This document shows positions 2,389 to 50,360 of a stretch of 64,000 nt of DNA, in pieces. Below the pieces are notes generated by a model, which ran no database searches, was not told the origin of the DNA, and worked only from the letters and a program-made list of their open reading frames with translations. Each line of letters opens with the position of its first letter. The first letter of the stretch is position 1. The stretch lies in the IMG/VR virus record IMGVR_UViG_3300028920_000034, positions 1 through 64,000 of that record; one strand, given 5' to 3'. Source of the DNA: a virus. The translations under genes and the position numbers were made by a program.

Positions 2389-2562
2389 CTATACCGGTTT
2401 ACAGGTAGAGTCAACCTGCTTCGGGCGCCACCAGGTCCACCTGGTACGCCCATGGATGCGCGTCCGGCTGCCAAAGGTCCAACCGTCCCGGACGAGCTCC
2501 ATCTGCTCATCGAAGTCCAGCTCACCCTCTACCGTCTTGATCTCTCGCTCACCATTACTCAT
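2389..2562 (-). CDS. Hypothetical 57-aa protein
   Basis: Begins MSNGEREIKTVEGELDFDEQ and ends with a tryptophan-rich basic tail (RWTWWRPKQ). The start has AAGGAG six bases upstream and directly follows the pentamer repeat array. The reading frame is open far upstream through the array, but that extension has only repetitive low-complexity sequence and is not counted. No family is recognised. Confidence 0.5.
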   Translation of the reverse strand: MSNGEREIKTVEGELDFDEQMELVRDGWTFGSRTRIHGRTRWTWWRPKQVDSTCKPV

Positions 2563-2644
2563 TGATAGCTCCTTGCCTTGCCATGCCCTGCCTTGCCTGG
2601 CCGCGCCTAGCCTCGCCCAGCCGCGCCCCGCGTTGCCGGGCCAC

Positions 2645-2754
2645 GCCACAACCCCGAGCCGGCGCCAGTGAGCCCGCACTCGGGATGCTACCTTTCCGCA
2701 GCTCCTTGCCTTGCCCAGCCACGCATCGCCGCGCCTTGCCGCGCCATGCAGCGC
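2645..2754 (-). repeat. 110-bp perfect direct repeat, copy 1
   Basis: Identical base for base to 2888-2997, offset 243 bp. Each copy holds a non-pentameric core with inverted arms CCCGAG and CTCGGG about 20 bases apart, then AAGGTAGC and AAGGAGCTG on the minus strand, embedded in NNGCC pentamers. Confidence 0.85.
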
Positions 2755-2887
2755 CTTGCCGCGCCCAGCTCTGCCGTGCCCTGCAAAGCCACGCTTCGCG
2801 CTGCTTTGCCGGTCCCTGCCCAGCCCGACCATGCCGCGCCCAGCCCTGCCGCACCTCGCAGAGCCTGTCCTCGCCACGCCGTGCTTG

Positions 2888-2997
2888 GCCACAACCCCGA
2901 GCCGGCGCCAGTGAGCCCGCACTCGGGATGCTACCTTTCCGCAGCTCCTTGCCTTGCCCAGCCACGCATCGCCGCGCCTTGCCGCGCCATGCAGCGC
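2888..2997 (-). repeat. 110-bp perfect direct repeat, copy 2
   Basis: Second copy of the block at 2645-2754. The 133 bp between the copies is pentamer repeat. Perfect identity over 110 bp implies recent duplication or ongoing homogenisation. Confidence 0.85.
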
Positions 2998-3092
2998 ATC
3001 GCCGCGCCTTGCCGCGCTACGCCATGCCCAGCATCGCCCCGCTCGGCCACGCCCTACCATGCCCTGCCTGTCCCAGCCGTGCTGTAGGGCTG

Positions 3093-3710
3093 CTACTTCC
3101 ACTCGCTCACCCGAAACTTGCCGTAGACACCCCGGAAGGTCCCCAGGCCGATGGCCACACCACCCTCTTCAAATAGGTTCTTGATCTCCTGTTCCTTGAT
3201 CTCGCGGTTCTGGAAAATCCAGAGGGTAAAGCTCAGGCTCCACGGAAGCGGGAGCACCGGGCGCTCCTTGGGATTCGGAATACCTTTCTCGAGCCTGGCC
3301 ACCCGGCGATCCAGGTAGATTCCAGAGGTTGGGTCTCGCTCCTTGTCCTGGTCAATGTCACCCATCTGAATCGGGTCCCCGTTCCGGCAAAATGGGATCA
3401 TTTCCGGTGACTCCTCCGGCCCCTGAATCATCGTGAAGCTCAGGCACGCATTCGCAATCTTCTTGTACTTGCGAGCGTCCCTGAGCCTCTTGGGGGCAGA
3501 GTTGGTGTTGTGGCTGGACAAGAACGAAATGATGTTTGAAGTCGGAAGCGCCAGCGTCCCGGTGCCAGGGATGAGGTACACTTTCTGGTTCCACATCAGC
3601 TTCGTGTCGTTGTCCCCCGCGTAGCGGTCGAACATGATCGGGGCTATCCCCTCCAGTTTCACCCTCCGCGTTACTTCTGCCATCGCTGTCAGTGATTCTG
3701 TCGCCTGCAT
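3093..3710 (-). CDS. Conserved-looking phage protein of unknown function
   Basis: A 205-residue soluble protein. It has several striking segments: VKLEGIAPIMFDRY near residues 18-31, LALPTSNIISFLSS near 53-66, and a glycine-rich GVAIGLGTFRGVYGKF at the C-terminus. The glycine-rich end is loosely like the loop of RAMP-fold RNA-binding proteins, but I cannot support that assignment. It lies just downstream of the Topo VI-A-like gene, and GAGGGAG precedes the start. Likely a nucleic-acid protein by context only. Confidence 0.6.
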   Translation of the reverse strand: MQATESLTAMAEVTRRVKLEGIAPIMFDRYAGDNDTKLMWNQKVYLIPGTGTLALPTSNIISFLSSHNTNSAPKRLRDARKYKKIANACLSFTMIQGPEESPEMIPFCRNGDPIQMGDIDQDKERDPTSGIYLDRRVARLEKGIPNPKERPVLPLPWSLSFTLWIFQNREIKEQEIKNLFEEGGVAIGLGTFRGVYGKFRVSEWK

Positions 3711-3771
3711 TTCGTTTCTCCCTCATGGTTCCTTGCCTTGTTTGTTCGGCCAGCCCATCCAGCCGAATCGT

Positions 3772-4647
3772 CTACAGCCCCTCGGATGCGCTCCGAAGGG
3801 TCTCCTTGATCTCATTCTCCTGGTCGATGATCTCGTTCATGGTGTCCATGTCCAGCCGGGCCCAGATAGCGCCGTTGATGATGGCCCGGAGCTCACGCGG
3901 CGGAAGCGCGTCCACCTCCCAGCTCTCGCGGCCGTACCTGGCGATGAACGCGCTGGCGCGCGAGTCGGACAGCTTGGCCGGATTCGGTGGAAGCTGATGC
4001 TTCTGCACCTGGTCGATGTTGAGGGCCACCTTGACCACCTCCACCTGGGTGCCGAACAGGTCCATGCGGTCCTGAATGTCCCGCACCATATCCTCGCCGC
4101 TCGGGTCTAGGTCCCCGAGGTACAAGATAGTGGCGTCGTCGCACCCGAGGTTGTCCATCCGATAGCTGATGCGCTTGGCGCTCTCGTACATGGCGCTCTG
4201 GGAGCTGTAGCCCCGGTTGACCATCAGCACGATGTGGCACTCCTTGGAGATAGGCTCGAGCACCCCGGCCAGGGCGTCCTTTTCCACCCACAGCTCCACG
4301 TAGTGGCGCTGCCCCTGGAGCCGCGGAAGCCGGAATGATGCCAGGGCGGACTCCATCAGCGAGCTCGCGGAGTCCCACTCGGGCGCCCGCTTGGCCTGGC
4401 GCACGCGGTCCTCAATCGCATCCCAGTCGATCTGCCCCGCCAGGCGCGCCTTGCTCACCAGGTTGCCCAGGTTCTTGTAGGACCGCTCCTTGTTCGGGAT
4501 GATGTTGGCGCTCACAAGCTGGTAGTAGAGCTGCCGGAGTGTAAGCCGAAGGCCGTCCTCCATGTAGGCTTCCACCACCCGGTTGCAGTGCTCCATCAGC
4601 TCCATGGACTTCGGGGTGAACCCCGCTTCGATGAATCGCTCCATCAT
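3772..4647 (-). CDS. Topo VI subunit A / Spo11-like protein (Mini-A type)
   Basis: A 291-residue protein with the two hallmarks of the Topo VI-A/Spo11 family. The winged-helix segment TLRQLYYQL (residues 36-44) has the Arg and paired Tyr of the catalytic 5Y-CAP domain. A TOPRIM domain follows, with WVEKDALAG (Glu122) and YLGDLDPSGED (Asp179 and Asp181). At under 300 residues it is shorter than classical Topo VI-A and matches the Mini-A proteins described from phages and plasmids, which lack an obvious B subunit. It may cleave or relax DNA; activity is inferred. Its start overlaps the stop of the upstream gene. Confidence 0.8.
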   Translation of the reverse strand: MMERFIEAGFTPKSMELMEHCNRVVEAYMEDGLRLTLRQLYYQLVSANIIPNKERSYKNLGNLVSKARLAGQIDWDAIEDRVRQAKRAPEWDSASSLMESALASFRLPRLQGQRHYVELWVEKDALAGVLEPISKECHIVLMVNRGYSSQSAMYESAKRISYRMDNLGCDDATILYLGDLDPSGEDMVRDIQDRMDLFGTQVEVVKVALNIDQVQKHQLPPNPAKLSDSRASAFIARYGRESWEVDALPPRELRAIINGAIWARLDMDTMNEIIDQENEIKETLRSASEGL

Positions 4648-5529: not shown

Positions 5530-5858
5530 TGCGCGTCCCTCCGGGGCCACCCGGTGGCGATGGCCAGCCACTCCTCGAGCTCGGCCTCGGTGAGCCCCAC
5601 GGTCTCGCCCTCGCCGTCCACCGCGGAAATGAAGCACGGCCCATGGATCACGATGGGGCCGAGCTGGCCGGGGAGCACCCGGTTCGGGGCATGGGTGAAG
5701 CGCCCCTCTTCGTTGCACCACAGCACAATGTTCCGGTGTCCGGTGGCCAGCATCACCGATTCGATGTAGCCGTCCACGAAGGTCTGCATGGCCTTCAGGT
5801 TGTCGTCCAGGTCCTCCGCCTTGGCGTGCTCGCCAGGCCGCATTGCGATGATCTGCAT
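5526..5858 (-). CDS. DUF3846-like protein
   Basis: A 110-residue protein with the layout of DUF3846: an N-terminal strand, then LKAMQTFVDGYIESVML (21-37), WCNEEGRF (48-55), and the strand PIVIHGPCFISAVD (68-81), where the family has an invariant Gly-Pro or Gly-Thr turn. The family is common in phages and mobile elements and its function is unknown. The start at 5858 leaves just two bases to the upstream gene. Confidence 0.6.
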   Translation of the reverse strand: MQIIAMRPGEHAKAEDLDDNLKAMQTFVDGYIESVMLATGHRNIVLWCNEEGRFTHAPNRVLPGQLGPIVIHGPCFISAVDGEGETVGLTEAELEEWLAIATGWPRRDAQ

Positions 5859-5859
5859 G

Positions 5860-6063
5860 TTACAGCTTCCCCTGTCGCTTGCGCTCCTGGAGACAATTCC
5901 AGCACAGGTCCTCCCCGTTGGCTCTGGACACACTCCACAGGAGCTTGGTTTTCAAATCGGTCCTCATCTGGTGAGCTTCTTTTCTCCCGCGCCCGCACGT
6001 CTGGCCGTAGGACGGGTGACTGAAGCCACAGCCGTCGCAAACGATCTTGACTTCGATGCTCAC
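5860..6063 (-). CDS. Small zinc-finger protein
   Basis: A 67-residue protein with CDGCGFSH and, further on, LCWNCLQERKRQ, together able to bind one zinc. The GTG start overlaps the TGA of the upstream gene and has GGAGG five bases away, so it is preferred to an ATG 12 bases upstream with a poorer site. Function unknown; probably binds nucleic acid or protein. Confidence 0.5.
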   Translation of the reverse strand: MSIEVKIVCDGCGFSHPSYGQTCGRGRKEAHQMRTDLKTKLLWSVSRANGEDLCWNCLQERKRQGKL

Positions 6064-6581
6064 GCGCGCCTCCATCGCTCCACCAGGGCCTTCCCGGCCT
6101 CGGTGATGAAGTAAATGGTCCAGTCGCCGCTGTCGGTGATCGCGGTGTCGCCTTTTGCCACCAGCCCGAGCTCCTCGAGCTGGGTACACGCCCCGTGGTT
6201 CTCCGGGTCCATCAGGATTGCCACCCCGCTCCCCGAAGTCCGGTCCAGGCTTCGCAGGATGCGCTTCTGGAGCTCCGCGTACTCCCTGGTGAGGGCATCG
6301 GCCACCCGAGCCGCAAAGTGAGCCGGGCGCTCCCCGCGGACACCAGCCGCAAACGCCTCCTCCTCGGTGGGCACACGGTGGCGATGCTGCCACGCCTCGG
6401 GGAGAGCCTTCCCGGCGCACAACCACTCGTCCAGGGCCTCCCATGCGATGTAGAGATCGTCGCAGTGACAAGAGTAGTCGTCACCGCTGCACAGATCGTA
6501 GCCGCCTGCCTTCCCACCGCAATACGGGTGAAGCGGCTTCATCAGCTCGCGGATGGTTTCCAGTGCCTTGTCAGAGTCCAT
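6060..6581 (-). CDS. Hypothetical 173-aa protein with winged-helix-like C-terminus
   Basis: The N-terminal half is Cys/His-rich (HPYCGGKAGGYDLCSGDDYSCHCDDLY). The C-terminal 60 residues look like a winged helix: a helical part ending TQLEELGLVAKGDTAI, then DSGDWTIYFITEAGKALVERW. It may be a DNA-binding protein with a metal-binding head. It is translationally coupled to the small zinc-finger gene. No family is recognised. Confidence 0.5.
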   Translation of the reverse strand: MDSDKALETIRELMKPLHPYCGGKAGGYDLCSGDDYSCHCDDLYIAWEALDEWLCAGKALPEAWQHRHRVPTEEEAFAAGVRGERPAHFAARVADALTREYAELQKRILRSLDRTSGSGVAILMDPENHGACTQLEELGLVAKGDTAITDSGDWTIYFITEAGKALVERWRRA

Positions 6582-36835: not shown

Positions 36836-36859
36836 GGTCAGGACGTTTTCGTCCTGACC
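36836..36859. repeat. Hairpin with 10-bp perfect stem
   Basis: GGTCAGGACG and CGTCCTGACC flank TTTT, forming a perfect 10-bp stem with a four-base loop. It abuts an AT-rich stretch (TATATAGAAGTATATG on the minus strand) and the 23-bp repeats. It is part of the 355-bp gap 36621-36975, in which I see no convincing gene. Confidence 0.75.
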
Positions 36860-36927
36860 ATGTAGACGTTTTCGTCCTGACCATGTAGACGAAAACGTCC
36901 TGACCATGTAGACGAAAACGTCCACAT
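36859..36927. repeat. Three 23-bp tandem repeats with flipped core
   Basis: Three successive 23-base units, CATGTAGACG-NNNN-CGTCCTGAC, at 36859-36881, 36882-36904 and 36905-36927. The four-base core is TTTT in the first and AAAA in the other two, although the flanks are unchanged; the last unit is degenerate at its right end. Each unit contains GACG/CGTC arms. The arrangement suits binding of a repeat-recognising protein (iteron, operator or centromere-like site). Confidence 0.75.
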
Positions 36928-49631: not shown

Positions 49632-50360
49632 TTACCCGTTCCGGGTCACGGCTTTGGCGTCCACCTTGTCCGCCGCGCCGTTGTCCGTTTTGAGCTTCGC
49701 CGCCTTGTCGGCTGCCTCCCGCTTCACCAGGACCATTTCCTCCGCAGAGAGCTCCTGGGTGCCCTCGCCCTTGAGCCAGTCGTTCACCCGCTTGAGGAGC
49801 TCCACCAGCTTGTCATCGCCCTTCCAGGAGGTGCCCTTGGCCAGCGACTCCACCACGGGGAACGCCTGGTCCACGTAGCCCAAGATCTTCTGCCAGCGTT
49901 CCGTCTTGAGCTTGGCGCGCCAATCCTGGCCCTTCACCACGCCCAAGATGGCCCCGATGATGCTCAGGAGCCCGATCAGAATCTTGACGATCAGCCCGAT
50001 CCACTTGTCCGCCTTGTCCCACCCGCTCGCCTTGGGCGCGGATGGGGCCGCCATGGCCGCTGGCTGGCCGCTGGCTGGCACTGTGGCCATGGCAGGAGTC
50101 TCGGTGGCCGGAGCTGCCGTCATGGCCGCCACAGGGGCGCTGACGGGCGCCGTGGCCATCGCGGGGGCCTCGGTGGCCGGAGCTGCCACCACGGGCGCCA
50201 TGGCAGCCATCGCAGGCGCGGGCGCGGGCGCGGCCATGGGCGCGGCGGTCATGGCCGTGGCCGGGGTCATGGCCGGCTGGGTGGCCGGCTGGGAGCTCGA
50301 GGGGGTGACGCCCACCAGGAGGAGGGCCAGGAAGGCCAGGGTCATCATGGATCGTCGCAT
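49632..50360 (-). CDS. Ala/Pro/Met-rich secreted protein with TM
   Basis: A 242-residue protein. It starts with a signal sequence (MRRSMMTLAFLALLLVGVTP), then about 85 residues of repetitive Ala/Pro/Met/Thr sequence with recurring APAT, APAM and PVxAP units. A hydrophobic segment (WIGLIVKILIGLLSIIGAIL) lies near 120-142. The C-terminus is helical and charged. The repetitive part looks like a flexible linker to the envelope. Function unknown. Confidence 0.55.
   Translation of the reverse strand: MRRSMMTLAFLALLLVGVTPSSSQPATQPAMTPATAMTAAPMAAPAPAPAMAAMAPVVAAPATEAPAMATAPVSAPVAAMTAAPATETPAMATVPASGQPAAMAAPSAPKASGWDKADKWIGLIVKILIGLLSIIGAILGVVKGQDWRAKLKTERWQKILGYVDQAFPVVESLAKGTSWKGDDKLVELLKRVNDWLKGEGTQELSAEEMVLVKREAADKAAKLKTDNGAADKVDAKAVTRNG

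Follow-up and report, generated by a model that had tools for sequence, protein, structure and literature searches.

A 2026 preprint describes VIPR, a phage-encoded system whose prototype is found in Escherichia phage SUSP1 (PMC13142463). According to the preprint, VIPR consists of a RAMP protein, Vipr, and of vrRNAs that each comprise 9-16 YNNGG repeats and a conserved 3′ tail; the NN dinucleotides act together as a gapped guide to DNA that leaves out one target base per unit, guide function was demonstrated in Vipr homologues, and an accessory gene, vap, is typical of the system but not universal (PMC13142463). Our literature search returned no other paper combining the terms "VIPR" and "vrRNA". 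Here we analyzed a window of 64,000 nucleotides from a virus (positions 1 to 64,000 of the 153-kb IMG/VR record IMGVR_UViG_3300028920_000034), and we put at about 0.93 the probability that it contains a phage-borne VIPR, in which Vipr would use the vrRNAs of the array as gapped guides to repress genes on rival DNA.

The locus had been singled out in a first-pass annotation, made from the letters alone, as a degenerate pentamer array at positions 2563-3092 containing a perfect 110-bp block twice. The autocorrelation check proposed there confirmed the periodicity: self-match at lag 5 was 0.50, above all of 2000 base shuffles (mean 0.32, maximum 0.38), further peaks occurred at lags 10, 15, 20 and 25, and other 530-bp stretches sampled across the window reached at most 0.32 at lag 5. 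On the transcribed (−) strand, which is the direction of the flanking genes, the array unit reads GGCNN, or GGY-NN when GGT is allowed, and the exact GGC(NN) x6 pattern had no occurrence outside the array in the 153-kb record. Parsing of this strand yielded three tracts, divided by two 66-nt cores, each overlapping the last pentamer of the tract before it (tract 1 or 2; Table 1); tract 3 leads into the ribosome-binding site of the next, small open reading frame. The 110-bp duplication is exact and maximal and consists of a duplicated guide end plus tail, while the inverted CCCGAG/CTCGGG pair, which is present as described together with the AAGGAG motifs, is the larger stem of the vrRNA 3′ tail. 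The array is crossed by long open frames, a trivial result for a 5-nt repeat with almost no stops, and the view that it is non-coding was upheld. Rfam searches of the window and of 12 related loci matched no family, and no tRNA genes were found in the window. Elsewhere in the window, a 23-bp tandem repeat occupies positions 36842-36923 (3.2 copies) and a 69-bp tandem repeat positions 50069-50219 (about two copies).

Table 1. Features of the putative VIPR locus in the window
Feature	Position	Strand	Description
vipr gene	3093-3710	−	205-aa Cas7/Csm3-like RAMP protein, phrog_4652 superfamily (fold, profile homology)
vrRNA tract 1	2949-3078	−	24 variable GGY-NN units + GGCAA GGCAA anchor; 7/24 non-GGY
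vrRNA tail 1	2888-2953	−	structured 66 nt, two hairpins, MFE −29.3 kcal/mol; overlaps last anchor unit
vrRNA tract 2	2706-2890	−	35 variable units + GGCAA GGCAA anchor; 11/35 non-GGY
vrRNA tail 2	2645-2710	−	identical to tail 1
vrRNA tract 3	2573-2647	−	13 variable units + anchor, without tail; 1/13 non-GGY
110-bp duplicate copy A	2888-2997	−	exact duplicate of copy B
110-bp duplicate copy B	2645-2754	−	10 guide-region units including anchor, + tail
Lone anchor-like AAGGCAAGGAACC	3727-3741	−	before vipr gene; relatives have an upstream vrRNA there
Exchangeable cassette	2549-3771		absent from sister phage L090

The array starts 14 bp past the stop codon of a gene for a 205-aa protein, which the earlier annotation had left unlinked to the array. 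The protein matched no family in Pfam or NCBIfam and gave a weak match to phrog_4652 (E 4.7e-7). Its AlphaFold model was confident (pLDDT 92.8), and nearly all of the best 50 Foldseek matches in the PDB were chains of CRISPR type III/VII complexes, mainly Csm3/Cas7-type subunits, with probabilities of 0.98-1.00 and TM values of about 0.4-0.5. A divergent family member, found through the DNA pattern, has a Csm3/Cas7 fold too. The family shares a conserved C-terminal motif, GLGTFRGVFGKF (pattern GxGTxRGxxGKF), which we take to lie at the glycine-rich loop of RAMP proteins. Together, the fold search and this conserved G-loop-like motif agree with the small RAMP protein, with RRM core, G-loop and thumb, that characterizes VIPR. 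The reading frame in the window is intact and keeps the family-invariant residues. The earlier suggestion of a structured RNA, or of a sponge for an RNA- or DNA-binding protein, is probably right to the extent that the array would be a structured RNA with the Cas7-like RNA-binding protein as its partner. Adjoining the cassette, at positions 3772-4647, is a phage DNA topoisomerase gene (phrog_6247, E 8.6e-87) with relatives in many phages.

Homology to the characterized Vipr was found with a strict seed profile, built only from the window and 80 phage loci selected by protein homology: SUSP1 Vipr was its sole significant match among 144 SUSP1 ORFs (E 2.8e-9). Alignment with hhalign of SUSP1 Vipr and four other members against the window family gave an E-value of 5.7e-15. 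SUSP1 Vipr belongs to PHROG 4652 (E 1.4e-96), and this PHROG ties both ends independently, matching the window protein as well as a mycobacteriophage protein that adjoins an array; on profile homology, PHROG 4652, an unnamed protein family, is thus tied to VIPR. The locus also has vrRNAs of alternating GGY and variable NN, an invariant structured 3′ tail, to which the structured tails of relatives are comparable, and a viral carrier. The described range of 9-16 repeats per vrRNA includes the length of tract 3 (13 units) and is exceeded by tract 1 (24) and tract 2 (35). Because Vipr profile homology, a Cas7 fold and an adjacent GGY/NN array coincide, we assign the locus to VIPR as a new member; judged from its sequence, the window holds a VIPR system. 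The statement in the first-pass annotation that no described phage element matches therefore did not survive, as the vrRNA arrays described in the preprint do match (PMC13142463).

The association between gene and array extends to other phages. The 80 protein-selected loci had been fetched solely by homology to the 205-aa protein, and a same-strand GGCNN array lay at most 1 kb from the gene in 78 of them; one locus had an antisense array, and the reversed-sequence control gave 13. In the opposite direction, 120 loci were taken among the matches listed for the bare pattern GGC(NN) x6. A divergent homologue ORF accompanied 79 of these 120 listed loci, in 76 on the array's strand, and a related ORF accompanied 59 of the 70 arrays with at least 20 units, all three counts coming from an iterated profile partly trained on those loci, with inflated E-values. 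The strict seed profile, which we prefer, gave 73 matches at E<1 in loci outside the seed set versus 1 for reversed sequences, some of the 73 being the same contigs fetched again. Several loci showed other arrangements. Arrays lie on the strand opposite the vipr-like gene in L117 and L141 and on both strands in L171 and L177. In L046, an AT-rich phage, a degenerate 5-periodic GG[A/C]NN array with repeated TTTTTACCCAAAACTAAAAATATA cores lies downstream of vipr (5590-6390) and was missed by the GGC scanner. In L050, a CRISPR-like array of 29-nt repeats (GTGATYCCCACGCGGGTACGGAGAYGCCG; spacing 61 or 53) at 3656-4051 ends about 20 bp upstream of the VIPR array (4073-4188) on the same viral contig.

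Arrays are in sense orientation, and many of them stop immediately ahead of a start codon, a layout that would suit a Cas7-like protein coating pentamers only within the mRNA of its own operon, for regulation or protection as with T4 gp32, the NN bases not being guides. We consider this very improbable. Arrays precede and follow the gene with about equal frequency; tails and tracts recur as units; NN is nearly random between close relatives, whereas scaffold and tails persist; and guide function of homologues is reported in the preprint (PMC13142463).

Consistent with a guide role, and independently of the preprint, the two parts of the unit behave differently. The consensus over 5859 units was G.955, G.961, C.913 (T.059), N, N, and NN identity between adjacent units was 0.117 versus 0.104 after shuffling. 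Neighbouring dinucleotides are thus almost independent, and an origin by slippage, which had been one of the earlier proposals, was rejected. In 139 close-family tracts (median 16 units), NN entropy mostly lay at 3.6-3.8 bits in the tract interior and dropped to about 2 bits over the final two units; a close-family tract is a variable guide followed by a constant 3′ anchor. Among 55 orthologous, non-identical tract pairs, for which vipr was on average 92% and the tails 95% identical, GGC positions were 96% identical but NN only 43%, close to the 40% found between random tract pairs; many of the 55 pairs come from the same phage and are hence not independent, but the contrast is large. Comparison of these pairs indicates that guides turn over on a scaffold that is retained, and a fixed scaffold with replaced NN constitutes an evolutionary test of the guide model. 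The exact 110-bp duplication, which for its exactness points to recent recombination, is what one might expect of functionless repeat DNA made by slippage or prone to recombination. With neighbouring NN almost independent, a near-universal linkage to one gene family and a strand bias, such an explanation retains next to no probability. In some relatives (L061, L062, L064 and L076), hairpins of the tails carry GGTTCGANTCC-like loops recalling tRNA T-arms, and ARAGORN found no tRNA in these tails; in L029, a tRNA-Gly gene directly follows a tract.

Comparison with a sister phage, L090, which is about 90-96% identical to the window phage in the main aligned stretches, delimited the exchangeable part. 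An unrelated short ORF, within a stretch of about 300 bp, takes the place of window positions 2549-3771 in L090, and neither the vipr gene nor an array is present in its record. Since both are missing, gene and array come and go as one cassette. Related VIPRs occur in F1 mycobacteriophages, among them Donkeykong, Quico and Saal. Their arrays form blocks, mostly of 7-15 units separated by a short phase shift, and whole blocks are gained or lost and differ between phages. In L007, L008, L009 and L251-L256, all F1 mycobacteriophages, the arrays have the antirepressor region on one side and the vipr-like gene on the other.

The state of the window system itself can be read in more than one way. 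Non-GGY units make up 29% of tract 1 and 31% of tract 2, compared with 1 of 13 in tract 3 and a family mean of 12.5% non-GGC. This makes tract 3 the likeliest of the three to function as a guide; tracts 1 and 2 may have decayed in part or may comprise guides that overlap. The lone anchor-like element before vipr may be the remnant of an upstream vrRNA. Within the VIPR interpretation, these features tentatively suggest a decaying or disarmed system in which an intact protein would be served by tract 3 alone, the other two tracts being degenerate copies. We think this somewhat unlikely, given that the vipr frame is intact with its family-invariant residues and that the duplication is recent and exact. 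Also rather unlikely is a minimal VIPR variant of one gene and RNA, without an accessory protein, exchanged between phages as a single cassette, in which the unusually long or overlapping tracts (24-35 units) would provide either a set of guides that overlap or a single gapped guide of great length.

We searched for targets of the window guides, scanning the large collections with exact gapped patterns only. No natural target was found by these scans in viral contigs or genomes, and the window and the L090 stretch contained no self target. Patterns from tract 3 matched nothing in viral contigs, and their 4 matches in genomes did not extend; the 8-unit guide common to tracts 1 and 2 had 30 viral matches without convincing extension, the best one being off codon phase. 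We also saw no clear resemblance of the NN dinucleotides to codon positions 1-2. We count this against the VIPR reading, as we do the absence of a target in these scans, the length and degeneracy of tracts 1 and 2, and the failure to recognize a vap gene. By analogy with the described skipping rule, the skip-1 target predicted for tract 3 would be GTNCCNAANGGNGCNTGNGANTANGCNCANAANAGNAT.

For the mycobacteriophages, 15 guide blocks were compared with seven genomes, using up to 50 kb of each. A single perfect match emerged: Quico block 2 pairs with the tape-measure gene of Che8 at 18/18 bases when 1 nt is skipped, and the skipped bases fall on wobble positions. Unit shuffles of block 2 scored above 16 in 0/1500 cases, and Quico's own first 50 kb gave at best 14/18 under the same skip. 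Wachhund, Squirty and Minnie have the Che8-type target allele as well; none of the three is among the VIPR carriers listed. With 2 nt skipped, block 2 also matched 17/18 bases at a conserved site shared by Quico, Tweety and Fruitloop (L260, L261, L263). We take this as probably a chance match, although it counts against the reading. The Quico-Che8 pairing is one match and bears on the window by homology only.

To the linkage, fold, prototype homology, scaffold and guide evolution, and joint gain or loss observed here, a mechanism can be added whose RNP assembly, DNA recognition and repression are borrowed from the preprint (PMC13142463). Vipr, the 205-aa Cas7-like protein, would coat the small vrRNAs that transcription of the array yields. 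Each protomer would presumably grip one GGY triplet and present the next NN dinucleotide, and the tail would cap the vrRNA 3′ end. Together, the NN pairs would form a gapped guide that anneals to double-stranded DNA of a rival, phage or prophage, with a single target base passed over from one pair to the next. Guide binding would repress the target gene. Expression, RNP formation and targeting in the window phage would, by analogy, follow this scheme, and phages probably use VIPR to shut down rival phages.

VIPR, so far described only in the 2026 preprint (PMC13142463), was thus reached here from raw sequence. The odd pentamers are most probably guide-RNA genes of a phage-carried, CRISPR-related system and not junk. 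The analysis also places VIPR in named F1 mycobacteriophages, whose host is a standard laboratory bacterium, M. smegmatis, and the predicted targeting of the Che8 tape measure by Quico block 2 makes the targeting rule testable.

Three known systems invite comparison. The TRAP protein binds (G/U)AG-NN RNA targets and regulates trp mRNA, and its spacers carry no information. TRAP works like the proposed window system in a single point, the recognition of triplets with two free bases between them, but its fold is unrelated. With the Csm3/Cas7 backbone of Class 1 CRISPR-Cas, the window protein shares a Cas7-type fold and a glycine-rich C-terminal motif, whereas the window RNA is a 5-nt repeat with a constant triplet and not a contiguous spacer; no CRISPR repeats were noted by the gene, nor any other cas genes in the cassette, and the flanking proteins tested matched no Cas family in Pfam. 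From VIPR as described, the locus differs in its GGC rather than GGT scaffold, in the much longer and more degenerate tracts 1 and 2, and in that no vap gene was recognized in the exchanged cassette absent from L090. Like VIPR, it has a small phage-encoded RAMP protein, here a homologue of SUSP1 Vipr, next to GGY/NN tracts that lead into a structured tail; its NN positions are hypervariable, and several vrRNAs occur in one locus.
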